Assembly: GCF_011927825.1 (NCBI RefSeq)
Contig: NZ_JAATJI010000001.1
Span: 2,170,001-2,234,000, forward strand
DNA: 64,000 bases
Direction of reading: 5' to 3'
Source of the DNA: Polymorphobacter fuscus
GTDB taxonomy: Bacteria > Pseudomonadota > Alphaproteobacteria > Sphingomonadales > Sphingomonadaceae
The notes beneath the pieces were generated by a model that was not told where the DNA came from, made no database searches, and saw only the letters and a program-made list of their open reading frames with translations. The translations under genes were made by a program, and so were the position numbers. Positions 26,758-52,934 of this stretch are shown piece by piece. Numbering within the stretch: the first letter of the stretch is position 1; each line of letters begins with the position of its first letter.

Positions 26758-27423
26758 TTACTGCAGCCAGACCGGGTCCTTGAGGGTCGCGACAAAGGCC
26801 GCGTGACGCTCCAGTTCCTCGGGCAGGGCGACATGGTCGCGGATGCCGAAATTGACCCGGTCGACGACCAGCTCGACCTCCACCGCCTCGGTGGCAAGGT
26901 CGAAACCGATCTGGCGGCCACCGGTCAGCTCGACATAAACCCGCGCCAGCAACTCGGCGTCGATCAACGCGCCATGCTTGGTGCGCCCCGACAGGTCGAT
27001 GCCATAGCGGCTGCACAGCGCATCGAGCGTGTGCTTGGCACCCGGGTTGATCTTGCGCGAAATCTCCAGCGTGTCGATCGAGCGGGTATGCGGGATCAGC
27101 GGCAGGTTTGCCCGCTTCAGCTCGTAATTGAGGAATTCCATGTCGAACGCCGCATTGTGCGCCACCAGCGGCGCATCGCCGATGAACGCCAGGAATTCGT
27201 CGACCACCATCTCGAACACCGGCTGGCCGGTCAGGAACGCCGTCGACAGGCCATGCACCGCCTGGGCATCCTTGGGCATCGCCCGGCACGGATCGATATA
27301 GGTGTGAAACGTGCGACCGGTGACGACCTTGCCGATCATCTCGACGGCGCCGATCTCGACAATGCGATGACCATCACCCGGAAAGATGCCGGTGGTTTCC
27401 GTGTCCCAGACGATTTCGCGCAT
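26758..27423 (-). CDS. dnaQ: DNA polymerase III epsilon subunit (proofreading)
   Basis: A 221-residue 3'-5' exonuclease that proofreads for the replicative polymerase. The DEDDh motifs are complete: DTETTG at residues 7-12, HNAAFDMEFLNYEL at about 94-107, and KHTLDALCSRYGIDL with H and D further on in TKHGALIDAELLARVY. The C-terminal helix that binds the alpha subunit follows. It belongs to the origin-proximal order dnaQ-coaE-aroE-maf-PPSR seen in Caulobacter, but here an islet of about 1.2 kb separates it from coaE. Confidence 0.95.
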   Translation of the reverse strand: MREIVWDTETTGIFPGDGHRIVEIGAVEMIGKVVTGRTFHTYIDPCRAMPKDAQAVHGLSTAFLTGQPVFEMVVDEFLAFIGDAPLVAHNAAFDMEFLNYELKRANLPLIPHTRSIDTLEISRKINPGAKHTLDALCSRYGIDLSGRTKHGALIDAELLARVYVELTGGRQIGFDLATEAVEVELVVDRVNFGIRDHVALPEELERHAAFVATLKDPVWLQ

Positions 27424-27472
27424 GGCGGGGCTGTAGCGATTTTGCGGCGTTTTGAGAAGAGCCCCCGGCAGG

Positions 27473-27491
27473 GCAGGGGGTTACCCCCTGC
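27473..27491. repeat. GC hairpin at islet edge
   Basis: Perfect hairpin GCAGGGGG-TTA-CCCCCTGC, 49 bases upstream of dnaQ. In-frame reading gives GGYPLHPF, a phrase I associate with short intergenic repeats of alphaproteobacterial genomes. It marks the left edge of the islet between dnaQ and coaE. Confidence 0.4.
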
Positions 27492-27586
27492 ACCCGTTTA
27501 TGGGCGGGTCAGTTGACCCAAACGACGGCTTTCGCCCAAATGCGAACATTGTTTGGCATAAGCGGTCAGCGTATCGGTGCCGGGTT

Positions 27587-28267
27587 ATGTCCCCGATTGC
27601 CACCTCGCTGAATTTTCAGAGCCACGGTGCGGAACGCCTGCCGGGTGCCGTAGCCAGAGATCTCGCCGCACTGCGCGGCTCCATAGCTTACCTCCCGGCA
27701 GATCACGCCGGCATCCGCATAAGAGGGGTTGCAACACTAACCCCATTCCTCGCATCGCATGGCTCGATCGGCGCGATTGCCGCCTGCACCCTCGGTCCAA
27801 GGAGCCGACCGGTTCGGGCCGTCCTGTTTGACAAGACCGCAGGAACCAATTGGTCGCTGGCTTGGCACCAAGATCGCACCATTTGTGTGGAACGGCGCGA
27901 TGAGGTTCAAGGCTTCGGCCCGTGGACCACGAAGCAAGGGATGCAGCACGTCGCTCCGCCCTTTGAGCTGCTGTCTCGCATGGTGACGTTGCGCATCCAT
28001 TTGGACGACGTTCCCGCGACCAATGCCCCACTGCTGATCGCGCCCGGTTCGCATAAACATGGTCGCATTCCAGTCGGTGGAATTGACGCCGTTGTGCGCC
28101 AGTGTGGCACGTACACCTGCCTCGCAGATGCTGGAGACGTGTGGATTTATGCGACCCCGATCCTGCACGCATCGGAAGCCGCCGCTAAGCCCGCCCGCCG
28201 GCGGGTTTTGCAGGTCGACTTCGCAGCGGAGGAGCTTCCGGGCGGGTTAGAATGGCTAGGCGTCTGA
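27587..28267 (+). CDS. Phytanoyl-CoA dioxygenase family protein
   Basis: A 226-residue Fe(II)/2-oxoglutarate oxygenase of the PhyH-like family. The iron ligands fit the facial triad: H and D in WHQDRTICV at about residues 94-96 and the distal H in TPILHAS at about 202; the 2-oxoglutarate arginine is probably in ARRRVLQVDFA shortly after. The stretch NAPLLIAPGSHKHGRIP is typical of the family. The substrate is unknown. Base composition is lower in GC than the flanking dnaQ and coaE, and the gene points against them, which supports acquisition by transfer. I chose the ATG at 27587; the longer reading includes the hairpin repeat. Confidence 0.82.
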   Translation: MSPIATSLNFQSHGAERLPGAVARDLAALRGSIAYLPADHAGIRIRGVATLTPFLASHGSIGAIAACTLGPRSRPVRAVLFDKTAGTNWSLAWHQDRTICVERRDEVQGFGPWTTKQGMQHVAPPFELLSRMVTLRIHLDDVPATNAPLLIAPGSHKHGRIPVGGIDAVVRQCGTYTCLADAGDVWIYATPILHASEAAAKPARRRVLQVDFAAEELPGGLEWLGV

Positions 28268-28378
28268 TGGCAGATTCCCGCCCTATCCCGGTAGCTCGCG
28301 CACGTCGGAGGGGCATCAGGGGGACTTGGCAACTATCGCTCAGTGGCGGACATTAGCACCGTCTGATAAGCCAACGGG

Positions 28379-28618
28379 ATGAAGGGCCAGCAAGAGAAGG
28401 CGGCTTACGCTGCGCGCACCATTCGGACCTTTTTGGACGAAACATGCGGCCCATACGAATGGGACGATTTCACCTCATGCTCCCTTCGCGATCCCGAGGT
28501 TGATAGTATCCGGCTTCGAGCGAGCAGTGTAGACCTTCCAGTGAGCGCTGACGGAGAGCGAGAGCTTCTGGCGTTGGCGGACGAGGCTGATCGTCTCGCC
28601 ACGGGCAACGACGGCTAA
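28379..28618 (+). CDS. Small hypothetical acidic protein
   Basis: A 79-residue acidic, hydrophilic protein (MKGQQEKAAYAARTIRTFLDETC...) with two cysteines in the first half (ETCGPYEW and SCSLRDP). It has no membrane segment or signal. The length, regular start and codon pattern make it a plausible gene, but I do not recognise the family. It shares the lower-GC islet with the dioxygenase, 111 bases downstream of it. Flanking bases hold degenerate CGGACRTT-type words often seen as intergenic debris in sphingomonads. Confidence 0.5.
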   Translation: MKGQQEKAAYAARTIRTFLDETCGPYEWDDFTSCSLRDPEVDSIRLRASSVDLPVSADGERELLALADEADRLATGNDG

Positions 28619-28676
28619 CCACCCATAACGGACGTTCTGCATAGTCGGTAATGAAAGGATTTGGGGTGAAGGGGCC

Positions 28677-29267
28677 TCAGGCGCCTTCACGACGGAGGCG
28701 CTCCACGACACGGCGCACCGCCATCCATGTCACTCGTCGGCCCCGCCCGGTTTCGATCACGACATCGGCGCGCCGCCGCTTCTCAGCGTCGGGCATCTGT
28801 GACTTGAGGATCGCGGCGAACTTGGCCCGCGTCATGCCCGGCCGGGCGAGCACGCGCGCGCGTTGGACGCGCAAGGGGGCGCTGACGACGATGGTCAGGT
28901 CGCAGCGCCGCCAGCCGCCCTTTTCAAACAAGAGTGGCACGTCGAGAACGACGGCGCGTTTCAGCCGGTGGCGGGCGAGGAAGTTCGACTGCGCTTCGCC
29001 GACGAGCGGGTGGAGGATGGCTTCAAGCTGTTTGAGCGCAGCGGGGTTGCCGAAGACCTGCGCGCCGAGTTTTTCGCGGTGGAGCCCGCCGGCGTGGGTG
29101 GTGCCGGCGAAGATGGCCTCGATGGCGGGCAGGGCGCGGCCGCCCGGACCCTGGAGGGCGCGGACGGCGGCATCGGCATCGAACACCGGGATGCCCGACC
29201 GTTCGAACATCGCGGCGACGGTCGATTTGCCCATGCCGATCGATCCGGTGAGGCCGATGATGATCAT
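28677..29267 (-). CDS. coaE: Dephospho-CoA kinase
   Basis: CoaE phosphorylates dephospho-CoA on the ribose 3'-OH, the last step of coenzyme A synthesis. The 196-residue protein has the P-loop GLTGSIGMGKST at residues 5-16, then DADAAVRAL (substrate aspartate), VLDVPLLFEKGG and the lid with RPGMTRAKFAAIL followed by QMPDAEKRRRADVVIETG. Its ATG overlaps the aroE stop as ATGA. A much longer open frame continues upstream inside aroE but is not coding. Confidence 0.95.
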   Translation of the reverse strand: MIIIGLTGSIGMGKSTVAAMFERSGIPVFDADAAVRALQGPGGRALPAIEAIFAGTTHAGGLHREKLGAQVFGNPAALKQLEAILHPLVGEAQSNFLARHRLKRAVVLDVPLLFEKGGWRRCDLTIVVSAPLRVQRARVLARPGMTRAKFAAILKSQMPDAEKRRRADVVIETGRGRRVTWMAVRRVVERLRREGA

Positions 29268-30091
29268 CGGGTCAGCAACGCGCGCAGTTCGGCATCGTGC
29301 TGGCGCGGCGCCGGCGCGTCGTAAAAGGCGGCGAACGCCGTCGCCGCCTGGCCGACGAGCATCTGCAGGCCGTCGATGACCGGCATGGTGCGCGCGCGCG
29401 CCGCCGCCAGCAGCGGGGTTTCGAGCGGGGCATAGACGGCGTCGAACACCGTTGTCGTGACGGGCAGCCGCGACAGGTCGACGGGCAGCGGCGGCTGGCC
29501 GGCCATGCCGAGGCTGGTGGCGTTGAAGAACAGCGCCGTTTGATCGGCATCGGGCCAGGGCGCGTCGAATGCCAGCACCGACCCGGCCGTGCCCGCGTTG
29601 GCGAGCATCGCCTCGCCCTTGGCGCGGTCGCGCGCCAGGACGGTCACCGATGCTGCACCGGCGACGACCGCGGCGGTGATCGCGGCGCGTGCGGCGCCGC
29701 CGGTGCCGGCGATCATCACGCTGCGCCCGGCAAGGTCGAGGTGCGCGATGGGCTCCAGCACGCCGTCGATATCGGTGTTGGCGCCGGCGATGCTGCCGTC
29801 GGCGGTGACGGTGACGGTGTTGACGGCGCCCATGGCGCGCGCCGAGTCGGCCAGCGTATCGAGGTGATCGATGACCGCGATCTTGTGCGGCACGGTGATG
29901 TTGACGCCGCGCAGGCCGAGCGCCGGCAGGGCGCGGATGGCGGCGCCGAGCGCGTCGGGATGGACGGGAAAGCGCGAATAATCGCCGTCCAACCCCAGCT
30001 TGCCGAGCCAGAAACGGTGGATGACCGGCGACTTCGAATGCGCCACTGGCCAGCCGAAGATGCCGGCGCTGGCGGGCTGCAGCCGCGTCAT
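29264..30091 (-). CDS. aroE: Shikimate dehydrogenase
   Basis: AroE reduces 3-dehydroshikimate to shikimate with NADPH. The 275-residue protein shows VAHSKSPVIHRFW at about residues 15-27 (shikimate site), GVNITVPHK with the catalytic lysine at about 67, AVNTVTVTADGSIAGANTDIDG, the nucleotide loop GTGGAARAA at about 131 and FNATSLGMAGQPPLP. The start at 30091 overlaps the maf stop as ATGA, and the stop overlaps coaE, so maf, aroE and coaE are translated in series. Confidence 0.96.
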   Translation of the reverse strand: MTRLQPASAGIFGWPVAHSKSPVIHRFWLGKLGLDGDYSRFPVHPDALGAAIRALPALGLRGVNITVPHKIAVIDHLDTLADSARAMGAVNTVTVTADGSIAGANTDIDGVLEPIAHLDLAGRSVMIAGTGGAARAAITAAVVAGAASVTVLARDRAKGEAMLANAGTAGSVLAFDAPWPDADQTALFFNATSLGMAGQPPLPVDLSRLPVTTTVFDAVYAPLETPLLAAARARTMPVIDGLQMLVGQAATAFAAFYDAPAPRQHDAELRALLTR

Positions 30092-30681
30092 GTCGCCAGC
30101 ACGCCGCGATCGCGCAGGTAACCGAGCACCGCCAGCAGCGGCAGGCCGCGCACGGTGAACTGGTCGCCGTCGACGCGGGTGAACAGCTGCGCGCCCAGCC
30201 CCTCGATGCGATAGCAGCCGACGCAGCCGAGCACCGCATCGCCTTCGGCATCGAGATAATCGGCGATGAACGCGTCCGACAGCGATCGCATCGTCAGCCG
30301 CACCGACCCGCCGGCGCGCCACACCGGTTCGCCGTTTTCGGCGATGACAGCGGCGGAGATCAGCCGGTGGGTGGCACCCGACAACCGGCGCAGCTGTGCC
30401 TCCGCGCCGGCGCGGGTTTCCGGCTTGGCGATCAGCCCGCCATCGGCAGCCACGACGACCGAATCGGCGCCCAGCACCAGCACGCCCGGCAATTTGCGCG
30501 CGATCTTGACGGCCTTCAGTTCGGCGAGTGCATCGGCGATGCGATCGGGCGTCGCGCCGGCGGCGACGAGCCCGGCGGTGACACCGTCTTCGTCGACATG
30601 CGCCGGCACCGCGTCATGCGCGACGCCGGCGGCGGCGAGCATGGCGCGCCGCGCCGGGCTCTGGCTGGCCAGCACGATCAT
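30088..30681 (-). CDS. maf: Maf family nucleoside triphosphate pyrophosphatase
   Basis: A 197-residue Maf-like protein, a nucleotide house-cleaning pyrophosphatase. The N-terminal ILASQSPARRAMLAAAG is the diagnostic substrate loop; GADSVVVAADGGLIAKPE carries the catalytic aspartate and lysine; YLDAEGDAVLGCVGCYRIEGLGAQLF is the conserved C-terminal stretch. Relatives hydrolyse dTTP/UTP or modified nucleotides. It is 7 bases downstream of the kinase-pyrophosphorylase gene and overlaps aroE. Confidence 0.94.
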   Translation of the reverse strand: MIVLASQSPARRAMLAAAGVAHDAVPAHVDEDGVTAGLVAAGATPDRIADALAELKAVKIARKLPGVLVLGADSVVVAADGGLIAKPETRAGAEAQLRRLSGATHRLISAAVIAENGEPVWRAGGSVRLTMRSLSDAFIADYLDAEGDAVLGCVGCYRIEGLGAQLFTRVDGDQFTVRGLPLLAVLGYLRDRGVLAT

Positions 30682-30688
30682 CGGACCA

Positions 30689-31537
30689 TCACCGGGGTAC
30701 CGGCCCGCTCGGGCCGCGCTGGGTGCGGCCCTGGAAAAGGTTGATGATTGCGGCGGCCGTTTCCTCGATCGACCGGCGCGTCACGTCGATGACCGGAATA
30801 TCATGGTCCGCGAACAGCCGCCGGGCATAGGCGACCTCGCTTTCGATATGTGCTGCATCGACATAATCGGTGTCGGGCGCCTGGCCGATGGTCAGCAGCC
30901 GGTTGCGCCGGATCGTCAGCAGCCGTTCGGGCGCCGTCGTCAGCCCGACGACCAGCGGCCGCTTCAGCGTGAACAGCAGCGCGGGCGGCGGCGATTGCGG
31001 GACGATGGGAATATTGGCGGTCTTGTAGCCGCGGTTGGCGAGATAGATCGACGTCGGCGTCTTGGAGGTGCGCGACACGCCGGCCAGGACGATATCGGCT
31101 TCCTCCCAGTTTTCGTGGGCGGCGCCATCGTCATGGACCATGGTGAAGTTGATCGCGTCGATACGATCGAAATAGGCCTTGTCCATGATGTGCTGGCGCC
31201 CCGGCCGGCGCGTCGCGGCCTGGTCGAGCAGATCGGACAGCGCGCCGATCATCGGATCGAGCGGCGAGACGATGGGCAGCCCCAGGCTGGCGCAGCGCTG
31301 CTCGAGCCGGTCGCGGACGCCGCCATCGACAAGGGTGTAGATAATAAGGCCCGGCTGGCGGGCGATCGCCTCGATGACGCGGTCGAGATGGCCTTCGGAT
31401 CGCACCATCGGCCAGAAATGCTTGATCCCTTCCACACCTTCGAACCGCGCCAGCCCGGCCTTGGCGATCGATTCGAGCGTTTCGCCGGTCGAATCGCTGA
31501 CCAGGTGGAGATGGAGGCGGGACGGCTCGAGAGTCAT
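30689..31537 (-). CDS. Kinase/pyrophosphorylase (PPSR/PDRP, DUF299)
   Basis: A 282-residue protein of the bifunctional serine/threonine kinase and phosphorylase family that regulates PEP synthetase or PPDK by reversible phosphorylation. The opening LHLHLVSDSTGETLESIAKA and the P-loop-like GVSRTSKTPTSIYLA at about residues 150-164 are diagnostic. The ATG at 31537 follows GGAGG. In Caulobacter the homologous gene (called RP001 in Rickettsia) is the first gene left of the chromosomal origin, with hemE on the other side; the same arrangement is found here. Confidence 0.93.
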   Translation of the reverse strand: MTLEPSRLHLHLVSDSTGETLESIAKAGLARFEGVEGIKHFWPMVRSEGHLDRVIEAIARQPGLIIYTLVDGGVRDRLEQRCASLGLPIVSPLDPMIGALSDLLDQAATRRPGRQHIMDKAYFDRIDAINFTMVHDDGAAHENWEEADIVLAGVSRTSKTPTSIYLANRGYKTANIPIVPQSPPPALLFTLKRPLVVGLTTAPERLLTIRRNRLLTIGQAPDTDYVDAAHIESEVAYARRLFADHDIPVIDVTRRSIEETAAAIINLFQGRTQRGPSGPVPR

Positions 31538-31965
31538 GAAGGGCCTCCGGCGGCTGGGGCCCGAGGTACTGACGCGAAAAGACCGGGGATGAGACTGGGG
31601 ATAACCATGGGGCGCCATGGTTATGGCGCGGCGAGCGCCGGGGGCAAGCGGCTTTTGCGACAGTTCCGACCGATTCCTCCCGCCCGCCGGGATGAGTCGC
31701 GAACCGCTTATCCCGCTGGGGAAGACTCCACAGGGCAGCCTGTGGATAACGGGGACAGTTTTCGCGACTCGCCGAGATTGAGGACTCTAGCCGCGCGCCG
31801 GATTGTGGACAGGCCGGTGCGGCGCCAACAATCCCCAAATGGGTCGGGTGACAACTACCATCGCATTTTCGATTCAAGATTGAATTGCAGATGGCCCGTT
31901 GCCGGTAGTGGCGCGCGGCGCGACTGGCCCTTGACCCATGGCCGGTTTCGCGGTGATGGGTCGGC
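31538..31965. other. oriC: Probable chromosomal replication origin (oriC)
   Basis: This 428-base gap between the divergent kinase-pyrophosphorylase gene and hemE corresponds to the Cori position of Caulobacter. It contains a perfect DnaA box TGTGGATAA (31741-31749, reverse of TTATCCACA), a one-mismatch box TGGGGATAA (31596-31604), weaker sites TTATCCCGC (31708-31716) and TGTGGACAG (31804-31812), and six GANTC sites between 31672 and 31875. An AT-richer stretch at about 31863-31890 could be the unwinding element. Genes on both sides are transcribed away from it. The gap must also carry the hemE and PPSR promoters. Confidence 0.8.
31694..31770. repeat. Nested inverted repeats around the DnaA box
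   Basis: Outer perfect 10-base arms GAGTCGCGAA (31694-31703) and TTCGCGACTC (31761-31770), each carrying a GANTC site. Inside them is a second pair, TCCACAGG and CCTGTGGA (31727-31734 and 31739-31746), whose right arm is part of the perfect DnaA box; TTATCC (31708) and GGATAA (31744) also face each other. This is more symmetry than chance predicts and looks like the organised core of the origin. Confidence 0.75.
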
Positions 31966-33009
31966 ATGATTTCGAACCCGACGCCGACCGATCCCCCCCT
32001 GCTCGCCGTGCTGAAAGGCGACCGCCGCGATCCGCCGCCGGTTTGGCTGATGCGCCAGGCCGGGCGGTACCTTCCCGAATATCGGGCGCTGCGGGCCGAA
32101 AAGGGCGGTTTCCTGGCACTGGTTTATGACAGCGACGCAGCCGCAGAGATCACGCTGCAGCCGATCCGCCGCTTCGGCATGGATGGCGCCATCCTGTTTT
32201 CGGACATTTTGATCGTGCCGCACGCCATCGGCCAGGGCCTGACCTTCGGCCCCGGCGAAGGCCCGCAGCTGACGCCGCCGCTGAGCGATGCGCGGTTCGA
32301 TGCGCTGGTGGCAAAGCCCGAATATCTGGCCAGGATCTACGAGACCGTGGCCAAGGTGAAGGCGCAGCTCGGCCACGAAACCACCATGCTCGGCTTTGCC
32401 GGTTCGCCGTGGACGGTTGCCACCTATATGGTCGCCGGCCATGGCAGCAAGGACCAGGGCGAAACCCGGCGGCTGGCCTATACCGATCCGCAGGGCTTCC
32501 AGGCGCTCATCGACAAGATCGTCGCTGTCACCGTAGATTATCTGTCGGGCCAGATCGAGGCCGGCGCACAGGCGGTGCAGCTGTTCGACAGCTGGGCCGG
32601 GACGCTGTCGCCGGCGCAGTTCGAACGCTGGGTGATCGCGCCGACCGCCGATATCGTCGGCCGGCTGATGGTCCGCCATGGCGATGTGCCGATCATCGGC
32701 TTTCCCAAGGGCGCCGGCGCCAAGCTGGCCGCCTATGCGGCCGAAACCGGAGTCGATGCCGTCGGCCTCGATGAAACCATCGATCCCCAATGGGCCGATG
32801 CGATGTTGCCGCCGGGAATGCCGGTGCAGGGCAATCTCGATCCGCTGGCGCTGATCGCCGGGGGGGACGCGCTGGTGACGGCGGTCAATCGCATCCGGGC
32901 GGCGTTCGACACCCGGCCCCACGTCTTCAACCTTGGCCATGGCATCCTGCCCGATGCGCCAATCGCCCATGTCGAACAGCTGATGGCGATGCTGCGGAAG
33001 CCTTTCTGA
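31966..33009 (+). CDS. hemE: Uroporphyrinogen decarboxylase
   Basis: HemE removes four acetate carboxyls from uroporphyrinogen III to give coproporphyrinogen III in heme synthesis. The 347-residue protein has the signature WLMRQAGRYLPEYRALR at about residues 27-43, the catalytic aspartate in ILFSDILIVP at about 84, GFAGSPWTVATYM, and the histidine stretch HVFNLGHGILPD near the C-terminus. It is the first gene right of the probable origin and 1 base upstream of hemJ. Confidence 0.97.
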   Translation: MISNPTPTDPPLLAVLKGDRRDPPPVWLMRQAGRYLPEYRALRAEKGGFLALVYDSDAAAEITLQPIRRFGMDGAILFSDILIVPHAIGQGLTFGPGEGPQLTPPLSDARFDALVAKPEYLARIYETVAKVKAQLGHETTMLGFAGSPWTVATYMVAGHGSKDQGETRRLAYTDPQGFQALIDKIVAVTVDYLSGQIEAGAQAVQLFDSWAGTLSPAQFERWVIAPTADIVGRLMVRHGDVPIIGFPKGAGAKLAAYAAETGVDAVGLDETIDPQWADAMLPPGMPVQGNLDPLALIAGGDALVTAVNRIRAAFDTRPHVFNLGHGILPDAPIAHVEQLMAMLRKPF

Positions 33010-33010
33010 C

Positions 33011-33457
33011 ATGGATCACGCCGTCGGCTGGCTCGGGGACGCCTATCTGTGGGTCAAGGCGCTGCACGTCATCTTCGTCATCTTCTGGATGGCGGGGCTG
33101 TTCATGCTGCCGCGGTTCCTGGTGTATTGGTCGCAGGTTGCGCCGGGCACCCCGGAAAATGACCTTTGGGCGGAACGCTGTGCCCGGCTCAAACGCATCA
33201 TCCTCAACCCCGGCATGATCGTCGTCTGGGTGCTCGGCATCATGCTGGCGTTTCACCTGGGATGGCCGGGCTGGCTGATGGCGAAGTTTCTCGTCGTCTT
33301 CGGCCTGTCGGGATTTCACGGCTGGATGATCGGTGCGGCGCGCAAATTCGCAGCCGGCGAGCGGCCGTACGCCGAAAAGACGCTGCGGCTGGTCAATGAA
33401 ATTCCGTCGCTGACGACGATCGTCATCGTCATCCTGGTGGTGGTAAAGCCCTTCTGA
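33011..33457 (+). CDS. hemJ: Protoporphyrinogen oxidase HemJ
   Basis: A 148-residue inner-membrane protein with four to five hydrophobic segments. HemJ oxidises protoporphyrinogen IX to protoporphyrin IX in most alphaproteobacteria and cyanobacteria. The conserved histidine is in WVKALHVIFVIFWMAGLFMLPR at about residue 19; further family marks are NPGMIVVWVLGIML and GFHGWMIGAARKFAAGER, and the C-terminus ends IVVVKPF. One base separates it from hemE, a normal pairing, so both heme genes share a transcript. Confidence 0.93.
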   Translation: MDHAVGWLGDAYLWVKALHVIFVIFWMAGLFMLPRFLVYWSQVAPGTPENDLWAERCARLKRIILNPGMIVVWVLGIMLAFHLGWPGWLMAKFLVVFGLSGFHGWMIGAARKFAAGERPYAEKTLRLVNEIPSLTTIVIVILVVVKPF

Positions 33458-36120: not shown

Positions 36121-37821
36121 ATGACGATGAGCATTGGAAAATCGCGCGCGCTGTGGTTGGGCGCGGCCCTGGTCGCGCTGGCAGCAGCGGCACCGCCGCT
36201 GCACGCGCAGACCGCCGAAGCGGCAGCGCCGGCGGGCGGTCCTGTCCAGGCCGTCAAGCCGCGGGCCGGAGCGGTGCCGGCGCCGGCGCGGCCGCAGGGT
36301 GAAGGCGTCGGGCCGTTCAACCGCATGGTCATCCGCGGCGTGACGCTGATCGACGGGTCGGGCGCACCACCGCGCGGCCCGGTGGACATCATCGTCGAAC
36401 GCAACAAGATTGCCGATATCGTGGCCGCCGGCACGCCCGGCCTGCCAATGAAGCCGGGCCGCGAGCCGCGCAACTTCGATTACGAGCTCGATGCCACCGG
36501 CATGTACATGCTGCCCGGCTTTGTCGACATGCACGTCCATGGCGCCAGCGACGACAAGGCGCCCGACATGTCCTATTCGTACAAGCTGTGGCTGGCGCAT
36601 GGTGTCACCACCGTGCGCGGTGTCGACCTGGCGCCGTTCGAAACCTCGCTCAGCGAGCGCGGCCGGTCGGCGCGCAACGAGATCACCGCGCCGCGCATCT
36701 TTGCCTATCAGCGGCCCGGCCAGGGCAAGGGCTGGACCGGCGGCCGGGTCAACACGCCGGCCGTGGCGCGCGCCTGGGTGCAATGGGCCGCCAAGCAGGG
36801 CATCGACGGGATCAAGCTGCTCGACAGCGAGGACCAGCCGCCCGAAGTGATGGAAGCCATCATGGACGAGGCCAAGAAGCAGAAGATCGGCACCGTCGCG
36901 CATCTGTCGCAGATCGGCGTCGGGCGGATGAACGCGCTGCAGGCGGGCAATGCCGGCTTGGGCACTGTCACCCACTTCTATGGCCATTTCGAATCGATGC
37001 TGAAGAACGGCCCGGTGCAGAACTGGCGCCCCGACTATAATTACGCCGATGAGCAGGACCGGTTCGGCGATGTCGCCAATCTGGGCGAGGAGAGCTTCGA
37101 AGCGGGTTCGCCCGAATGGTGGGACTATCTGCACAAGCAGAAGGAAAACAAGGTCGTCTTCGATCCGACGATGACGATCTATGCGGCCGGCCGCGACCTG
37201 ATGCACGCCCGCAACGCCGACTGGCACGACAAATACACGATGCCGCAGCTGTGGGGTTTCTACCAGTCGTCGCGCGAGAACCATGGATCCTATTTTTACG
37301 ACTGGAGCCTTGGCACCGAGGTCAAGTGGCGAAATTTCTACCACAAGTTCATGCGGCTGATGAACGACTACAAGAATATCGGCGGCCGGGTGACGACCGG
37401 GTCGGATTCGGGGTTCATCTTCGAACCCTATGGCTTCGGCTATATCCAGGAGCTCGAACTGCTGCAGGAAGCCGGGTTCAACCCCTCCCAGGTGGTGCAG
37501 GCAGCGACGCTCAACGGCGCGCTGACGCTGTACGATCCCAAGGGCGAAGTGCCGCCGATCGGCACCGTGCGCGTCGGCAAGCTGGCCGACATGGTGCTGG
37601 TCAAGGAAAACCCGCTGCAGAACTTCAAGACGCTCTATGGCACCGGGGCGCTGCGGCTCAATGAAAAGACCCAGAAGCTCGAACGGGTCGGCGGGGTCAG
37701 CTACACCATCAAAGACGGGATCGTCTTCGATGCCAAGAAGCTGCTCGACGATGTCGCGGTGATGGTGCGGTCCGAAAAGCAGCGCATGGGCATGCCGGCC
37801 GAGGGCCTGCCGCACCCGTGA
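36121..37821 (+). CDS. Secreted amidohydrolase family protein, copy 1
   Basis: A 566-residue metal hydrolase with a signal peptide (ending near LHAQ, residue 30) and an alanine/proline-rich linker, so it acts in the periplasm or outside. The amidohydrolase barrel shows HVH after PGFVDM at about residues 137-140, a lysine in GIDGIKLL that may be the carbamylated bridging residue, histidines in GTVAHLSQ and THFYGH, and the aspartate in TTGSDSGF. This set fits a binuclear metal site like that of prolidase- or imidazolonepropionase-type members. It is 65 bases downstream of the TonB receptor. Substrate unknown; a dipeptide or N-acyl amino acid is my inference. Confidence 0.88.
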   Translation: MTMSIGKSRALWLGAALVALAAAAPPLHAQTAEAAAPAGGPVQAVKPRAGAVPAPARPQGEGVGPFNRMVIRGVTLIDGSGAPPRGPVDIIVERNKIADIVAAGTPGLPMKPGREPRNFDYELDATGMYMLPGFVDMHVHGASDDKAPDMSYSYKLWLAHGVTTVRGVDLAPFETSLSERGRSARNEITAPRIFAYQRPGQGKGWTGGRVNTPAVARAWVQWAAKQGIDGIKLLDSEDQPPEVMEAIMDEAKKQKIGTVAHLSQIGVGRMNALQAGNAGLGTVTHFYGHFESMLKNGPVQNWRPDYNYADEQDRFGDVANLGEESFEAGSPEWWDYLHKQKENKVVFDPTMTIYAAGRDLMHARNADWHDKYTMPQLWGFYQSSRENHGSYFYDWSLGTEVKWRNFYHKFMRLMNDYKNIGGRVTTGSDSGFIFEPYGFGYIQELELLQEAGFNPSQVVQAATLNGALTLYDPKGEVPPIGTVRVGKLADMVLVKENPLQNFKTLYGTGALRLNEKTQKLERVGGVSYTIKDGIVFDAKKLLDDVAVMVRSEKQRMGMPAEGLPHP

Positions 37822-37830
37822 CGGGTATTG

Positions 37831-37856
37831 CTGAGGGATCGACGACTGAGGGATCG
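37831..37856 (+). repeat. Two direct copies of an 11-base word
   Basis: CTGAGGGATCG occurs at 37831-37841 and 37846-37856, a 15-base period, in the 43-base gap between the two amidohydrolase genes just before the ribosome site of the second. It could be a slippage product or a binding site. Confidence 0.4.
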
Positions 37857-37864
37857 GCAGGGGA

Positions 37865-39517
37865 ATGACGATGGTGTTTCGAACATTGGCCAGCATCGCC
37901 GCGCTGGCGGCGGTGCTGGCGCCGCCGGCTGCGGCGCAGCAACGGGCGGCGCCGGCGGCAGAGCCTGCGCAGGTGGCGCGGGGCGCCCCGGCGCGGGTTG
38001 CGGGGGAAGGAATCGGCCCGTTCCGGCGGATGGTCATTCGCGGCGCGACGCTGATCGACGGCACCGGCGCGCCGCCGCGCGGGCCGGTCGACATCGTCAT
38101 CGAAGGCAATCGCATCGCCGAGATCCGCCAGGCGGGCTGGCCCGGCCTGCCGGAGCGCAGCAACCGCGAACCGCGCGATGTCGACCAGGAAATCGACGCG
38201 ACCGGCATGTATGTGCTGCCCGGCTTTGTCGACATGCACACCCACCTGCCCGGCCCCGACAAGGCGCCCGACGCCTCCTATGCGTATAAGCTGTGGCTGG
38301 CGCATGGCGTGACGACGGTGCGCGGCGTGCCGCTGGCGGCGCCGGCGCTGGCGAGTGCCGAAAAGAACCGGTCCGCCGCCAACACCATCGCGGCACCGCG
38401 GATCTTCAACTACCAGACTTTGGGGGCCGGCTGGTCGGGTGGCCGCATCCTGACGACGGAAAAAGCGCGCGAGTGGGTGCGCTGGGCCGCCGCCAACAAT
38501 ATCGACGGCATCAAGTTCTTCGGCTGGCAGGATGAAACGCCCGAGATCATCACCGCCGCCATCGACGAAGCGCACAAGAACAAGATGGGCACGGTGGCGC
38601 ATCTCAGCCAGCTCGGCGTCGCCAATTTCAACGGGCGGATCGCCGGCGAAGCCGGGCTCGACACCATCACGCACTTTTACGGTCACATGGAATCGCTGTT
38701 GAAGGACGGCACCATCCAGAAGTTCACGCCGGGCTATAATTTCTACAACGAGCTCGATCGCTTCGGCGAAGTCGCGAACATCTGGAACGAGGTGTACGAA
38801 CCGGGCAGCCCGCAATGGATGGCGTATCTGGAGGCGCAGAAGGCGCATCACGTCACCTTCGATCCGACCTTCAACATCTATGCGGCGTCGCGCGACCTGA
38901 TGCGGGCGCGCAATGCCGATTGGCAGGCGCAATATGCGACCCCGCAATTGTGGAAATATTTCCAGTCGACGCGCGACAACCATGGGTCGTATTTCTATGA
39001 CTGGAACAGCGAGATCGAGACCTCGTGGAAGCACTTTTACGGGCGGTTCTTCACACTGGTGAACGATTACAAGAATATGGGCGGCCGGGTGACCGTCGGC
39101 ACCGATTCGGGTTTCATCTACAAGGTCTATGGCTTTGCCTATGTCGAGGAACTCGAGCTGTTCCGCGAGGCCGGGTTCACGCCGCTGGAGATCTTTCGGT
39201 CGGCGACCATGTTGGGCGCGCGGACGCTTCACGAACCCAAGGGTGTCGCCGAACCGATGGGCGTGGTGCGCACCGGCATGCTCGCCGACCTGGTGGTGGT
39301 GAAGGAAAACCCGCTGCAGAATCTGAAGACGCTGTACGGCACCGGCTTCATGCGGCTGAACAATGCCACCAACGCCCAGGAAAAGGTCGGCGGCGTCCGC
39401 TATACGATCAAGGACGGCATCGTCTACGACGCGCCGCGCCTGCTCGCCGATGTCGCCGCGATGGTCGCTGCCGAAAAGCAGCGGCTGAACGCGGCCCCGG
39501 CGCCGGCGCAGCCGTGA
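37865..39517 (+). CDS. Secreted amidohydrolase family protein, copy 2
   Basis: A 550-residue paralogue of the preceding gene, colinear over its whole length. It has a signal peptide (ending near PPAAAQ), HTH after PGFVDM at about residue 118, a lysine in NIDGIKFF, histidines in GTVAHLSQ and THFYGH, and the aspartate in VGTDSGF. All metal-ligand positions seen in copy 1 are kept, so both are probably active. Differences cluster in the loops after the first metal motif and around residues 180-200, suggesting altered substrate choice after duplication. It is 43 bases downstream of copy 1 and convergent with the Lrp gene. Confidence 0.88.
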   Translation: MTMVFRTLASIAALAAVLAPPAAAQQRAAPAAEPAQVARGAPARVAGEGIGPFRRMVIRGATLIDGTGAPPRGPVDIVIEGNRIAEIRQAGWPGLPERSNREPRDVDQEIDATGMYVLPGFVDMHTHLPGPDKAPDASYAYKLWLAHGVTTVRGVPLAAPALASAEKNRSAANTIAAPRIFNYQTLGAGWSGGRILTTEKAREWVRWAAANNIDGIKFFGWQDETPEIITAAIDEAHKNKMGTVAHLSQLGVANFNGRIAGEAGLDTITHFYGHMESLLKDGTIQKFTPGYNFYNELDRFGEVANIWNEVYEPGSPQWMAYLEAQKAHHVTFDPTFNIYAASRDLMRARNADWQAQYATPQLWKYFQSTRDNHGSYFYDWNSEIETSWKHFYGRFFTLVNDYKNMGGRVTVGTDSGFIYKVYGFAYVEELELFREAGFTPLEIFRSATMLGARTLHEPKGVAEPMGVVRTGMLADLVVVKENPLQNLKTLYGTGFMRLNNATNAQEKVGGVRYTIKDGIVYDAPRLLADVAAMVAAEKQRLNAAPAPAQP

Positions 39518-45672: not shown

Positions 45673-46545
45673 ATGCCGCGCCTCCGCATCGCTCTCGAAT
45701 GGTTTCTCAACCCCGATCATCTGCCGTTGATCGCGGCAAGCGCGCGGTTGGTGGCCGATGGCTGGGACATCGAACTGGTGGTTCCCGACGATCATTATGA
45801 CGGTTTCCAGGCGTTGGCGGACGGCGCCGTCGACCTGGTGGTCAACGAGCCCCTCCACCTTGTCGAACAGCGGGCGCTGCGGCTGATCGCGCACGGCTGC
45901 TTCTTTGCCACGGACGGCGGCGTGCTGATGCACCGCGCAGCGCTCGACCGGCTGGTGGCGGGGGATCGGATACGGATCGCGTCGCCGGTGTCGAATGCGA
46001 CGACGGACGGGCTGTGCCGCGATATCCTGCAGGGCTGGATGGCGCAGCGCGGCGCGGTGCTGGGTCAGGACCAGGTCGTCATCGCGCCGGCCGGCTTCGG
46101 GCATGTCGACAATCTGGCCGCGGGTTTCGACGGGGCCTGGCTGGCGTTCGCCAATGTCGAAGGCGTCGCCGCGCGCCTGCGCGGGCTCGATACCCAACTG
46201 ATCACCACGGCAGAGGCCGGTATCCCGAACTTCTCGGCGCTTGAACTGATCGGTGCCGCCGATGCGCCGGACGCGGTGCGGGCGGGGATCGCCACGCTGG
46301 TGGCGACCCTCGACCGCGTCACGCCGGAACTGTGCGCCGACCCGGCCTTTGCCCGCCGCCTCTGGTATGCCGCCAGTGGCGAAGCGCCCGGCGACGAAGC
46401 CGATGCCATTGTCGCGGCGTCGCTGCCGCGCTTTCTGGCCCCGGTCCGCCGCAGCGCCGCGCTGTGGCGGCCGATGTGGCGCTACCTCCACGACCGCGGC
46501 GGCGATGTCGTCGATGAAGAAGCCTTTGAAGAAATGTTCGCCTGA
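45673..46545 (+). CDS. NMT1/THI5-like substrate-binding domain protein, no signal
   Basis: A 290-residue protein with the fold pattern of NMT1/THI5-like (SsuA-type) binding proteins: RIALEWFLNPDHLPLIAASARL at the N-terminus, then GAVDLVVNEPLHL and NATTDGLCRDILQGWM. Relatives are periplasmic pyrimidine or sulfonate-binding proteins, or eukaryotic-type Thi5 enzymes. Here no signal peptide is visible and no ABC permease or ATPase gene is adjacent, so it may be cytoplasmic. I do not see the cysteine-rich motif of yeast Thi5. It starts 66 bases after the alpha/beta hydrolase. Function uncertain. Confidence 0.75.
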   Translation: MPRLRIALEWFLNPDHLPLIAASARLVADGWDIELVVPDDHYDGFQALADGAVDLVVNEPLHLVEQRALRLIAHGCFFATDGGVLMHRAALDRLVAGDRIRIASPVSNATTDGLCRDILQGWMAQRGAVLGQDQVVIAPAGFGHVDNLAAGFDGAWLAFANVEGVAARLRGLDTQLITTAEAGIPNFSALELIGAADAPDAVRAGIATLVATLDRVTPELCADPAFARRLWYAASGEAPGDEADAIVAASLPRFLAPVRRSAALWRPMWRYLHDRGGDVVDEEAFEEMFA

Positions 46546-46702
46546 ACGGATCTCGGCAACCGTGCGCCGAAAATATCGTCAATATCCGACATGACGGTCA
46601 AGAAACGAAACAATATCGCCCTTAATATATGGCTGATGTCGGATTTTCCTTGGCCCTCATCATGCCGAATCCAGCGCTCTGGAGTTTTCTGGCCATTTTT
46701 TC

Positions 46703-46728
46703 GGAACTGATTTGCGATTTCAGTCGTT
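46703..46728 (+). promoter_or_regulatory. Candidate general-stress (EcfG) promoter
   Basis: GGAAC at 46703-46707 and CGTT at 46725-46728, 17 bases apart, match the alphaproteobacterial sigma EcfG consensus GGAAC-N16/17-CGTT. The CGTT ends 37 bases before the start of the small downstream gene, a normal distance. Confidence 0.6.
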
Positions 46729-46765
46729 GGAAGTGGAAATCCAATCTGTCTTCAGGGAGATGATC

Positions 46766-46996
46766 ATGACCGAACCGCGTTCGAAGGAAAGCCAGGCCGA
46801 CATCGCCGCGCGCGTTCATGACCAGAAGCAGCGGGCCGATGCCGAGGCCCCCGGCCACGCCGAACAGGCAAGCGAAGGCACGACGCCGGGGGACGCGGGC
46901 ATGACATCGTCGCCGCGGCCCGATTACCCGCCGTCGGGGGCTTTCGATGCGGAAGGCCAGCGGCCCGCGCTCGAACGATCGCGCAAGGCGCGCTGA
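46766..46996 (+). CDS. Small hydrophilic hypothetical protein
   Basis: A 76-residue, highly hydrophilic, probably disordered protein rich in Glu, Ala, Pro, Ser and Arg (MTEPRSKESQADIAARVHDQ...), with PDYPPSGAFDAEGQRPALERS near the C-terminus. The ATG at 46766 has AGGGAGA upstream; the open frame begins earlier but without a ribosome site. The EcfG-like promoter in front suggests induction by general stress, like many small hydrophilic stress proteins of alphaproteobacteria. No family recognised. It is 52 bases upstream of the HPF-like gene. Confidence 0.7.
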   Translation: MTEPRSKESQADIAARVHDQKQRADAEAPGHAEQASEGTTPGDAGMTSSPRPDYPPSGAFDAEGQRPALERSRKAR

Positions 46997-47048
46997 ATCC
47001 GGGTCCACCGACCGTTCCCGTTCAATATGCTGAAAAGGTAATGCCGCA

Positions 47049-47372
47049 ATGCTCGTCCAGGTCAATTCCGACAATCACATCAACGCCGGCGAAGATACAG
47101 TTGCCGAGATCGAAGCCGATGTGCGCCGGCGGCTCGACCGCTATGCGTCACGCCTGACGCGCGTCGAACTGCACTTTCGCGACGTCAATGCCGACAGCAA
47201 CGTCGGCGACGACAAGTTGTGCACGATGGAAGCGCGTCCGAACGGTCTCGATCCGCTGACGGTCACGGCGTCCGCCGCCACGATCGGCCAGGCCAGTGCC
47301 GGCGCGGCCGCCAAGCTGCTGGTCGCGCTCGAGCGGACCTTCGGCAAACTGACGTCGCGCAAAGGTCATTGA
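47049..47372 (+). CDS. Short HPF/RaiA-fold ribosome-associated protein
   Basis: A 107-residue protein with the S30AE/HPF fold: MLVQVNSDNHINAGEDTVAEIEADVRRRL, then VELHFRDVNADSNVGDDKLCTMEARPNGLDPLTVTA and a final helix KLLVALERTFGKLTSRK. It lacks the C-terminal dimerisation domain of the long HPF encoded at 26049-26657, so it would bind ribosomes without forming 100S dimers, or be a diverged member. It follows the small stress gene and may share its promoter. Confidence 0.85.
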   Translation: MLVQVNSDNHINAGEDTVAEIEADVRRRLDRYASRLTRVELHFRDVNADSNVGDDKLCTMEARPNGLDPLTVTASAATIGQASAGAAAKLLVALERTFGKLTSRKGH

Positions 47373-47473
47373 GGCGCCTGGAGACTTGCAGCGACGGAAC
47401 GCACGCAGCAAAGTGGTGAAATTCATGTAGGGGCTGGTATCGCGTCTCTCGAACCGGAAGACCCGACCAGCCA

Positions 47474-50302
47474 GTGACAGACCCCTTGGCCCTTTATACC
47501 CTGTTGGCGCTTCCGTTTCTGGCAGCGTTGCTGGTGGCCGTCGTCGGCGATCGGGGCCGGATATGGCATTCCGGCCCTGCGGCGCTTGCCAGCGCGGCGG
47601 GGTTGTTACTGCTCCTGTCGCTGGCGCCCGGTGTTTTGGCCGGCCGCGCCGCCGCCGTCTCGATGGCCTGGGTGCCGGCCATCGGCCTCGATTTCGCGCT
47701 GATGGTCGATCCGCTTGGCCTGATGTTTGCCGGACTGATCCTCGGTATCGGGCTGCTGGTGATCGTCTTCGGGCATTTCTATCTCGCCGAAGGCGAGGCG
47801 ACGCTGCGGTTTTTTGCCAGCCTGATGCTGTTCCAGGGCGCCATGCTCGGCATTGTCGTGTCGGGCAATGTCTTGCTGCTGCTGGTGTTCTGGGAAATGA
47901 CCAGCCTGTCGTCGTTCCTGCTCATCGGCTTCTGGCAAGACAAGGCCGAGGCGCGGCAGGGGGCGCGGATGGCGCTGGCGGTCACCGGCGGCGGCGGGCT
48001 GGCGCTGATCGGCGGGCTGTTGTTGCTGGGGGTCGCTGCCGGGTCTTTCGACCTGGCGACCATCCTGGCGCGCGGCGACCTGGTGCGGGCGTCGCCGCTC
48101 TACGCGCCGATGCTCGTCCTGGTGCTCATCGGCTGCTTTACCAAATCGGCGCAATTCCCGTTCCATTTCTGGCTGCCGCACGCGATGGCGGCGCCGACGC
48201 CGGTCAGTGCCTATCTCCATTCGGCGACGATGGTGAAGGCCGGCGTGTTCCTGCTGGCAAGGCTGTGGCCGGTGCTAGCCGGGACCGATCTCTACACGAT
48301 CATCGTCACCAGCGTCGGGCTGGCGACGATGCTGTTCGGCGGCTGGGTGGCGCTGTTCCGCCATGACCTGAAGAGCATTCTCGCCTATTCGACGATCAGC
48401 CAGCTGGGCTTGCTCGTCATGCTTCTGGGCTTTTCGATCGAGGCCGCGGCCGCAGCGGCGGTGTTCCACATCCTCAACCATGCCGCGTTCAAGGCAGCGC
48501 TGTTCATGTCGGCGGGCATCGTCGATCACGAAACCGGCACGCGCGATCTGCGCAGGCTCGGCGGGCTGGCGAAGGTGATGCCGATTACCGCGACGATTGC
48601 CATGCTTGCGGCAGCAGCGATGGCCGGGCTGCCGCCGATGGGGGGCTTTATTTCGAAGGAAATGATGCTCGATGAAACGCTGGCGGTCGGGCTGTTCGGC
48701 GTGCCCTGGCTGGTGCCGGTGGTGGCGACCGTCGCGGCGGCGCTGTCGGCCGGCTATTCGCTGCGCTTCGCGGTGAAGCTGTTTCTCGGCCAGCCGCGCG
48801 AGCCGGGCCCGCATGCCCGGGCGCACGACCCCGGCGCCGGCATGTGGGCGTCGCCGGCCGTGCTCGTCGCGCTCGCGCTGCTGTTCGGGCTGGCGCCGAT
48901 GCTGGTGGCAGGATCGCTGGTCGCTGCGGTGACGGGGGCCGTGATCGGCGGGCCGGCGCCGGCCGTCGCGCTCGCCCTGTGGCATGGCTTCAACTTGCCG
49001 CTGGCGATGAGCGCCGGCGCGGTCGCCGCGGGTGCGGTGCTGCTGTGGCAACACGGCGGGCTGTTGCGCTGGTACGAATCGCAGCCGCATATCGACGCGA
49101 AGCGGCTGTTCGACACCGGCCTGTCGGCAGTGGATGGCGCCGTGCGCCGCGCGGTCGTCGCCATTCATGCGCCGTCGCTGCAGCGCATGTTGTTCACTGT
49201 GTTCGCCATTGTCGTGCTGGCGGTGGTCGAAGGCGGCCTTGCCGGCGGCGGCCGGCTGACCGGGGCGCGGGCGGGCATTCCGGCATCTCCGGTGGCGATA
49301 CTGGCCTGGGGCCTGCTGCTGGCGGCGACGGTGATGATGGTCCAGAACCAGCGGCAACGTTTCCTGTCGCTGATCTATGTCAGCGTCATCGGGTTGGTCG
49401 TCGCGCTGGCGTTCGTGCTGTTCTCCGCGCCCGACCTGGCATTGACCCAGATTGCCGTCGAGGTGGTGACGATCATCCTGTTGCTGCTGGCGCTCAACCT
49501 GCTGCCGAAGACGCCGCCGACCTTGTCGTCCGATGCCCGCCGCCGCCGCGATGCGGTGCTGGCGATCCTGGGCGGCATCGCGGTCGGCGGCCTCGCCTGG
49601 GCGATGATGACGCGCGATCCGGGGCCGCTGATCTCCGCCTATCATATCGCCAACAGCTACAAGGGCGGCGGCGGCACCAATGTCGTCAATGTGACGCTGG
49701 TCGATTTTCGCGCCTTCGACACGATGGGCGAAATCATCGTTCTGGGCATCGCCGGCCTTGCCATCTACGCCCTGCTCGATCCGACGGCGCGCGGTGCCGC
49801 GGGCGCACGGCTGCGCAATTGGCAGGCCGACATGCCGCATTCGCCCGAACGCCACCCGATGATGTTCGTCATGGCGAGCCGCATCCTGCTCCCGCTCGTT
49901 CTGGCGGCGGGGATCTATATCTTCCTGCGCGGCCATAACCAGCCCGGCGGCGGTTTCATCGCGGCGCTGGTCGTCGCCATCGGGCTGCTGGTGCAATATC
50001 TGGCGTCGGGGTTCGACTGGACCGATGGGCGCCGCCGGATCGGCGAACATTTCCTCATCGCCTTCGGCGTTCTGGTGGCGATGGCGACCGGGCTGGGGTC
50101 GCTGGTCTTCGGCGCCAACTTCCTGTCGAGCGCCTTCGGCTATTTCGACCTGCCGCTGGTCGGCGAGGTCGAACTGGCGACCGCCATGCTGTTCGACCTC
50201 GGGGTGTTCGCCGTGGTGTTCGGAGCCGTCATGCTGGCGCTGGCGCAGCTCAGCCATATCGCCCAGCGTGCCGCCCGCGCCGCCGAGGAGGACCGGCGGT
50301 GA
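47474..50302 (+). CDS. mrpA: Na+/H+ antiporter Mrp subunit A (A-B fusion)
   Basis: A 942-residue subunit of the multi-component Mrp (Mnh/Pha) antiporter. The first about 500 residues form the NuoL-like proton-conducting domain (LLVFWEMTSLSSFLLIGFW, then SAQFPFHFWLPHAMAAPTPVSAYLHSATMVKAG with the key lysine, and HDLKSILAYSTISQLG). The C-terminal third carries the MrpB-like domain (GHNQPGGGFIAALVVA). The A and B subunits are fused, as is usual in alphaproteobacteria. It begins with GTG and has a weak GGAAG site. The complex exports Na+ in exchange for H+, for pH and salt homeostasis. Its stop overlaps mrpC. Confidence 0.95.
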   Translation: MTDPLALYTLLALPFLAALLVAVVGDRGRIWHSGPAALASAAGLLLLLSLAPGVLAGRAAAVSMAWVPAIGLDFALMVDPLGLMFAGLILGIGLLVIVFGHFYLAEGEATLRFFASLMLFQGAMLGIVVSGNVLLLLVFWEMTSLSSFLLIGFWQDKAEARQGARMALAVTGGGGLALIGGLLLLGVAAGSFDLATILARGDLVRASPLYAPMLVLVLIGCFTKSAQFPFHFWLPHAMAAPTPVSAYLHSATMVKAGVFLLARLWPVLAGTDLYTIIVTSVGLATMLFGGWVALFRHDLKSILAYSTISQLGLLVMLLGFSIEAAAAAAVFHILNHAAFKAALFMSAGIVDHETGTRDLRRLGGLAKVMPITATIAMLAAAAMAGLPPMGGFISKEMMLDETLAVGLFGVPWLVPVVATVAAALSAGYSLRFAVKLFLGQPREPGPHARAHDPGAGMWASPAVLVALALLFGLAPMLVAGSLVAAVTGAVIGGPAPAVALALWHGFNLPLAMSAGAVAAGAVLLWQHGGLLRWYESQPHIDAKRLFDTGLSAVDGAVRRAVVAIHAPSLQRMLFTVFAIVVLAVVEGGLAGGGRLTGARAGIPASPVAILAWGLLLAATVMMVQNQRQRFLSLIYVSVIGLVVALAFVLFSAPDLALTQIAVEVVTIILLLLALNLLPKTPPTLSSDARRRRDAVLAILGGIAVGGLAWAMMTRDPGPLISAYHIANSYKGGGGTNVVNVTLVDFRAFDTMGEIIVLGIAGLAIYALLDPTARGAAGARLRNWQADMPHSPERHPMMFVMASRILLPLVLAAGIYIFLRGHNQPGGGFIAALVVAIGLLVQYLASGFDWTDGRRRIGEHFLIAFGVLVAMATGLGSLVFGANFLSSAFGYFDLPLVGEVELATAMLFDLGVFAVVFGAVMLALAQLSHIAQRAARAAEEDRR

Positions 50303-50667
50303 TCACGCTCGAATTCCTCATGGCCAGCGCCATCGCCGTGCTGACCGCCGGCGGCATCTATCTGGCGCTGCGCGGCCGCACCTTTCAGGTCGTCCTGGGC
50401 CTCACGCTGATCTCCTATGCCGTCAACCTGTTCCTGTTCGTGTCCGGCCGGCTGACGATCAACCGGCCGCCGATCTGGTCGAAGACGATTTCCGACTATG
50501 CCGATCCGCTGCCCCAGGCGCTGGTGCTGACGGCGATCGTCATCACCTTCGGCATGACCGCCTTTGCCGTGGTGCTGTCGCTGCGCAGCTTCCTTGAAAC
50601 CGGCAGCGACCAGGTCGATGGCGATGAAGTCGCCTGCGCCACCGACTCCGACGCGACGCCGTCATGA
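50299..50667 (+). CDS. mrpC: Na+/H+ antiporter Mrp subunit C
   Basis: A 122-residue NuoK-like subunit with three membrane segments (LMASAIAVLTAGGIYLAL, VVLGLTLISYAVNLFLFVSG and ALVLTAIVITFGMTAFAVVLSLR). The motif DPLPQALVLTAIVI is diagnostic of MrpC. It starts with GTG overlapping the mrpA stop (GTGA) and its own stop overlaps mrpD, so the subunits are produced in a coupled way. Confidence 0.95.
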   Translation: MITLEFLMASAIAVLTAGGIYLALRGRTFQVVLGLTLISYAVNLFLFVSGRLTINRPPIWSKTISDYADPLPQALVLTAIVITFGMTAFAVVLSLRSFLETGSDQVDGDEVACATDSDATPS

Positions 50668-52181: not shown

Positions 52182-52182
52182 C

Positions 52183-52668: not shown

Positions 52669-52934
52669 TCGGCCTTGCGGTGATGTTCGGTTTCGGCTGC
52701 CTGGCGCTGGCGCTGTTGCTCAATCTGTGGCGGCTGTTGCGCGGCCCGACGATCAGCGACCGGATCGCGGCGCTCGACACGATGGTGATCAATGCCATCG
52801 CGCTGATCGTGCTGTTCGGCATCTCCCAGGCCGACGACACCTATTTCGAAGCGGCATTGCTGCTCGCCATGGTCGGCTTCGTCGGCACCGTCGCCTATTG
52901 CAAGTTCGCGCTGCGCGGCGACATCGTCGAATGA
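52665..52934 (+). CDS. mrpF: Na+/H+ antiporter Mrp subunit F
   Basis: An 89-residue subunit with three membrane segments. The motif RGPTISDRIAALDTMVINAIALIVLFG at about residues 25-51 is diagnostic for MrpF/PhaF. It overlaps mrpE and mrpG by four bases each, placing it in the coupled operon. Confidence 0.94.
   Translation: MIGLAVMFGFGCLALALLLNLWRLLRGPTISDRIAALDTMVINAIALIVLFGISQADDTYFEAALLLAMVGFVGTVAYCKFALRGDIVE

Follow-up and report, generated by a model that had tools for sequence, protein, structure and literature searches.

Does the short intergenic gap between the divergent genes PPSR and hemE serve as the chromosomal replication origin (oriC) of this genome? The window analysed here is a 64-kb stretch (C1:2170001-2234000) of a 3.36-Mb genome in three contigs, and its gap spans 428 bp (31538-31965), counted from the start codon taken for PPSR (31537, minus strand) to the ATG of hemE (31966, plus strand). 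A longer alternative PPSR frame of 309 amino acids would begin at 31618 and overlap the first of the DnaA boxes listed in Table 1. An earlier note had proposed the gap as a probable origin, in part because it recognized the gene order dnaQ, coaE, aroE, maf, PPSR and hemE with flanking genes pointing away. Pfam matches recover exactly this order as RNase_T (the dnaQ-type exonuclease), CoaE, Shikimate_dh_N (aroE), Maf, Kinase-PPPase (PPSR) and URO-D (hemE), and the two boundary genes are divergent. On the sequence features set out below, we predict with high confidence that the gap is oriC, of the known hemE type.

Table 1. Coordinates of the predicted origin, its elements and its surroundings in the window
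Feature	Position	Strand	Basis or remark
Predicted oriC, PPSR-hemE intergenic gap	31538..31965		between divergent PPSR (-) and hemE (+)
PPSR (Kinase-PPPase), left boundary gene	30689..31537	-	Pfam
hemE (URO-D), right boundary gene	31966..33009	+	Pfam
Greater part of the collinear core around the gap: dnaQ-type exonuclease, coaE, aroE, maf, PPSR (-); hemE, UPF0093 gene (+)	26758..33457		Pfam and gene-order comparison
DnaA box 1, TTATCCCCA, one mismatch	31596..31604	-	genus gaps: TTATCCACA in 12/23, TTATCCCCA in 8/23
Six GANTC (CcrM-type) sites	31672..31875		starts 31672, 31694, 31724, 31766, 31783, 31871
Inverted repeat around box 2, GAGTCGCGAA (31694-31703) / TTCGCGACTC (31761-31770)	31694..31770		left arm not conserved in the genus
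Half-box (CCACA) with GANTC site, GACTCCACAG	31724..31733	+	head to head with box 2; genus gaps: CACA core 23/23, CACAG 20/23, GANTC at 31724 14/23
DnaA box 2, perfect TTATCCACA	31741..31749	-	perfect at the same position in 15/23 genus gaps
Conserved CGACTCGC	31765..31772	+	21/23 genus gaps; GANTC at 31766 in 23/23
DnaA box 3, CTGTCCACA, two mismatches	31804..31812	-	genus mostly CCATCCACA or TCATCCACA
DnaA box 4, CAATCCCCA, three mismatches to TTATCCACA	31829..31837	+	genus: TTATCCCCA in 6/23, variants elsewhere
DnaA-trio-like ACAACTACC, CTAC at 31855, leading into the AT-rich stretch; candidate unwinding element	31851..31890	+	alignment, AT content
TTGACC	31931..31936	+	23/23 genus gaps

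The divergent PPSR-hemE order is widely retained, being present at 79 of 80 named loci and in all 23 genus genomes with a PPSR match (the two sets overlap). The sole named locus with PPSR and no hemE, within 8.8 kb, is L100, from the Sphingomonas MAG RYN_524. To the right of hemE lies a UPF0093 gene, which we take to be hemJ-like. Neither a tRNA nor an Rfam family at gathering score was found in the window. Farther along it, downstream of a TonB-dependent receptor, two neighbouring long ORFs (36121-39517) encode similar proteins of 566 and 550 amino acids that look like a tandem duplication, the first of them a Pfam amidohydrolase. At 46001-54000 the AT skew (-0.16 to -0.28) is stronger than in the rest of the window.

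The hemE region is the usual place for the origin in the class, and it has precedents among sphingomonads (PMC4741004, PMC4059872). An oriC has been predicted at the same hemE locus, within the same order of bacteria, in Sphingopyxis granuli TFA and other Sphingomonadaceae, where conserved DnaA boxes and a putative DUE are described (PMC4741004), and an origin near hemE is reported for Novosphingobium sp. PP1Y (PMC4059872). The present case concerns a different genus from that of Sphingopyxis granuli TFA, and adds a GANTC count at the resolution of the gap, an order of box and CTAC, and the rearranged flanks.

The perfect and the one-mismatch DnaA box noted earlier in the gap are both there, as boxes 2 and 1. 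Box 2 is the only perfect box within the surrounding 332 kb, and the two boxes with at most one mismatch inside the gap compare with 0.06 expected. In these 332 kb of contiguous genome, the gap alone has two such boxes within 500 or 600 bp. On larger scales the boxes are ordinary: the window holds five with at most one mismatch against 3.45 expected, a count equalled or exceeded in 29 of 100 shuffles, and the whole genome shows no enrichment of perfect boxes, with 9 against 18 for the pattern read backwards. The best DnaA-box cluster coincides with this gap in each of six species for which contiguous stretches were compared (332 kb in the present genome, G000; 220 kb in G021; 160 kb in G002; 120 kb in G012; 112 kb in G009; 100 kb in G010).

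Conservation was counted over 88 distinct orthologous gaps, comprising those of 23 genus genomes, the own genome included (24 were searched and 23 matched; G016 has no PPSR match), and those of 65 further named loci, referred to as family gaps. Left out before counting were L074-L086 (overlap with the genus set), L093 (an exact duplicate) and L154 (the own genome again), as well as L177 (a second piece of G013) and the hemE-less L100. The 88 gaps contain 79 perfect boxes, where dinucleotide shuffles predict 0.12, and 222 boxes with at most one mismatch, where 4.4 are expected. At least one perfect box occurs in 22 of 23 genus gaps and 33 of 65 family gaps, and L113 is the one gap among the 88 without any box of at most one mismatch.

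Aligned across the genus and read in window order, the gap presents box 1, a GCAAGCGG-like motif, the half-box head to head with box 2, CGACTCGC, box 3, box 4, an ACTAC-type motif, the AT-rich stretch and TTGACC. Box 4 has the opposite orientation, toward the AT-rich stretch. Boxes 3 and 4 are degenerate in the window's own gap. AT content is 0.55 in 31838-31897 in a gap that is 36% AT overall, and the genus mean reaches 0.58-0.60 at -100 to -60 from the hemE ATG.

A DnaA box followed by CTAC within 4-24 nt occurs in 16 of 23 genus gaps, where shuffles give 0.4 and the opposite strand 1 of 23, and in 11 of 65 family gaps versus 1.7 in shuffles, for a pattern that was picked after viewing the alignment and with four forms of the trio pattern tried. 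The window's gap has one CTAC only. This arrangement resembles a basal unwinding system (BUS) in that a box, a spacer, CTA-type triplets and an AT-rich stretch follow in order on one strand. It differs in that three strict consecutive trios after a box are rare (4 of 23 genus gaps and 4 of 65 family gaps), and in that the window's box 4 is degenerate. A search program for the BUS is described as requiring three trios and a spacer of at most 16 bp (PMC8287927). From the aligned sequences, a BUS-like order in the genus is likely rather than proved. As single-stranded DNA, the 428 bp fold better than shuffles (z -3.65). A role for the inverted repeat around box 2 was rejected, its left arm being unconserved across the genus.

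The gap is also crowded with GANTC sites. Genus gaps carry 15.0 of them per kb and family gaps 14.5, while the coding DNA on their flanks has 2.1 and 2.5, and the observed totals (134 in genus gaps, 286 in family gaps) far exceed those of shuffled sequences (34.9 and 85.3). At least one site is found in each of the 88 gaps. Across the 332 kb, 0.11% of 428-bp intervals reach six sites, the gap included, and 78 putative intergenic stretches, which include missed genes (one stretch is 8.2 kb), average 1.58 sites per kb, again with the gap included. In all six species the densest GANTC interval of the 100-332 kb stretches is this gap. The patterns GATC, GTNAC and GGNCC, run alongside GANTC, are not enriched in the gaps. 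The genome encodes a CcrM-like protein at C1:247686 that matches PDB 6pbd CcrMI (E 6.3e-155), and it has a GcrA match.

Several GANTC sites are described in the origins of Caulobacter and close species (PMC3973325), and a strong rise in GANTC around ori is reported for four alphaproteobacterial orders at a resolution of hundredths of the chromosome (PMC9836097). GANTC is likewise reported at the second origin of Agrobacterium (PMC11514494), and according to the Epigenomic Landscape paper it is absent from the four origin clusters treated there (PMC4752239). The clustering in the gap is a sharper view of this known enrichment around ori.

The position of the gap on the chromosome was assessed from the terminus. 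Forward GGGNAGGG sites are dense up to C1 481,488, the next lying at 670,225 among the matches listed, all of which are forward; whole-genome counts are 277 forward and 251 reverse. GC skew was sampled in 36 stretches, each of 20 kb, which together make up 21% of the genome. It is clearly positive at 0.08-0.27 Mb and changes sign near 0.5 Mb; over C1 0.5-2.0 Mb most values are negative, those at 0.756, 1.344, 1.680 and 1.764 Mb being positive. Together, the GGGNAGGG distribution and the skew sign change place the terminus near 0.48-0.50 Mb. With the terminus at 485 kb and with C2 inferred to close the circle, the antipode falls at 2.166 Mb, 36 kb from the gap, and adding C2 in this presumed placement to the right arm gives arms of ~1.72 and 1.64 Mb. 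Dif-like patterns had no match in the examined parts of C1. C2 as a second replicon was rejected on account of these arm lengths and of the genome's only ParB_N match being on C1. An origin at dnaA (1.522 Mb) was also rejected, with skew negative on both sides.

The gap might instead be a regulatory region only, in which DnaA acts as a transcription factor on hemE and PPSR. The conserved TTGACC upstream of hemE in every genus gap, probably the -35 element of the hemE promoter, would fit this reading, as would the description of Caulobacter DnaA as a transcription regulator (PMC4468827). The box cluster, the AT-rich stretch, the GANTC cluster and the near-antipodal position nevertheless exceed what a promoter calls for, and we consider a purely regulatory gap extremely improbable. 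Origin and regulatory roles can coexist in the same gap.

A more specific challenge comes from local strand asymmetry, analysed, like the intergenic stretches above, with genes taken as ORFs filtered by codon-position GC, with no gene finder. Within the 332 kb, the cumulative GC-skew minimum lies at 2,151,171, 50 kb toward the PPSR side, and the strand-corrected change point at 2.152 Mb has a bootstrap 95% interval of 2.104-2.184 Mb, outside which the gap (2.2015 Mb) falls. The GC-skew check that had been suggested for the gap agrees only roughly, the switch being ~50 kb off with an interval that excludes the gap. Beyond the gap on its right, the samples show weak skew of varying sign, which is negative at 2.436, 2.520, 2.688 and 2.766 Mb and where C2 begins.

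Taken at face value, these data would put the active origin near 2.15 Mb and reduce the hemE gap to a conserved divergent promoter regulated by DnaA and CcrM. The congener G021 shows a similar offset, with a flip of skew sign around 420 kb on C14, some 60-80 kb from the gap toward PPSR, and G012 shows a smaller one (-30 kb). Best change points elsewhere lie at -52 kb in G002, +24 kb in G010, +52 kb in G009, where there is no usable step, and +5 kb in G003, with a step of the wrong sign in a 55 kb stretch. Of seven species, six have a step of the expected sign at the gap, and none has its best change point there. A Sphingobium (G024) and Glacieibacterium (G025), from two other genera, have a step of just 0.010 and 0.016 across the hemE gap. 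In G002, both sides of the gap show strong skew of the same sign. Between 68 and 260 kb on its contig C4, around hemE, the stretches read have skew of a single sign that reaches 0.20, and the sign is reversed at 40-60 and 290-310 kb; single samples from three other contigs are at or below 0.05. Near-origin skew is described as a poor guide in Wolbachia and relatives (PMC1914354), and it is a poor guide in the present group.

Gene order offers a possible explanation for the offset. A core from -7.5 to +1.7 kb is collinear, single genes apart, in six relatives (G012, G009, G002, G021, G010 and G003), and beyond this ~10-kb core the order is scrambled between species. A block lying at -57 to -15 kb in the present genome is on the PPSR side in G021, G010 and G003 and on the hemE side in G002, and did not turn up in the compared stretches of G012 and G009. 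Its far edge lies near the skew change point of the present genome. Because the flanking order is scrambled outside the core, we attribute the skew offset to rearrangement combined with weak skew; in the simplest reading, inversions beside the origin left the old skew in place. The origin may also have lain, or may lie, beyond the block, since G021 has the block in common with the present genome, on the same side, and likewise shows an offset.

For an origin near 2.15 Mb, then, stands the asymmetry switch itself. Against it, the only close pair of boxes in the 332 kb is in the hemE gap, part of the stretch of "wrong" skew is one gene block common to the present genome and G021, the varying gene order around the gap fits rearrangement, and the skew near the hemE gap in two other genera (G024, G025) is too weak for locating an origin. 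We judge an origin at that site to be very unlikely.

The place of parB differs as well. parB lies on the hemE side in seven of eight congeners, at 12-29 kb (80 kb in G002), and on a separate contig in G003; in the present genome it is 99 kb away on the PPSR side. A search for parS with at most two mismatches found five palindromic places, two beside parB and three elsewhere, with a control pattern giving 2 + 2. The two beside the sole ParB_N match, with one and two mismatches, lie outside the window at C1:2098200-2100128, and a putative intergenic stretch of 607 bp near parB (2100083-2100689) has five GANTC sites. That parB and the nearby parS-like sites are ~100 kb from the gap, on the PPSR side, was counted against the oriC reading, as was the degeneracy of boxes 3 and 4 in the window.

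The oriC reading is favoured by the agreement of sequence elements, conservation, uniqueness in the stretches read and a position opposite the terminus, the last with C2 taken to close the circle. The earlier proposal of a probable origin is accordingly supported by gene context, DnaA boxes and conservation across the 88 gaps, and further by the AT-rich stretch, the clustering of CcrM sites and the near-antipodal position.

The closest model is Cori of Caulobacter crescentus, which occupies the gap between hemE and a COG1806/DUF299 gene, the same boundary genes as here. In Caulobacter dnaA is near the origin, whereas here it is 679 kb from the gap. Like the present gap, Cori is described as having DnaA boxes, an AT-rich stretch and GANTC sites (PMC1914354, PMC4468827, PMC3973325). 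The strong box here is full-consensus TTATCCACA, whereas Cori has a weakened G-box. Cori also has five CtrA sites, whereas no TTAA-N7-TTAA with at most one mismatch occurs in the 64-kb window, where chance predicts 0.98 and degenerate sites are still possible. A perfect CtrA site is found in none of the 23 genus gaps and 5 of 65 family gaps, and one mismatch raises these counts, which have no chance control, to 3 and 17. That the gap is a hemE-type oriC without a consensus CtrA site is, as a prediction, well supported. Further sources cited in this analysis are PMC3794950 and PMC8116508.

These elements suggest how the origin might fire. DnaA would bind boxes 1 and 2 and spread across the head-to-head half-box and boxes 3 and 4. 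From box 4, which faces the AT-rich stretch, it could extend along one strand at the ACTAC motif, so that ~40 bp might melt and helicase might be loaded for two divergent forks. Transcription of hemE and PPSR would run away from the origin site.

The CcrM-like enzyme would be expected to methylate the GANTC cluster, leaving it hemimethylated after firing; a role of this hemimethylation in origin timing is conjecture. The dense solitary adenine methylase sites described for gammaproteobacterial origins, in the form of a Dam/GATC cluster, offer a likeness (PMC4752239), the site here being GANTC and the enzyme CcrM-like. A joint reading, which we offer tentatively and regard as rather unlikely, is that CcrM methylation is the origin's own cell-cycle gate in the genus and that the ~10-kb core shifts relative to its flanks between species. 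As part of that reading, the conserved GANTC cluster interleaved with DnaA half-boxes would let hemimethylation alter DnaA binding until CcrM acts late, in the manner of Dam/SeqA and in the context of genus origin gaps without perfect CtrA sites.

The prediction places an origin for the genus, and judging from titles and the openings of abstracts we found no earlier one in print among the papers listed. GC skew alone would misplace that origin by about 50 kb, and the 88 gaps form a resource for choosing the boxes, the unwinding stretch and the GANTC sites to remove.
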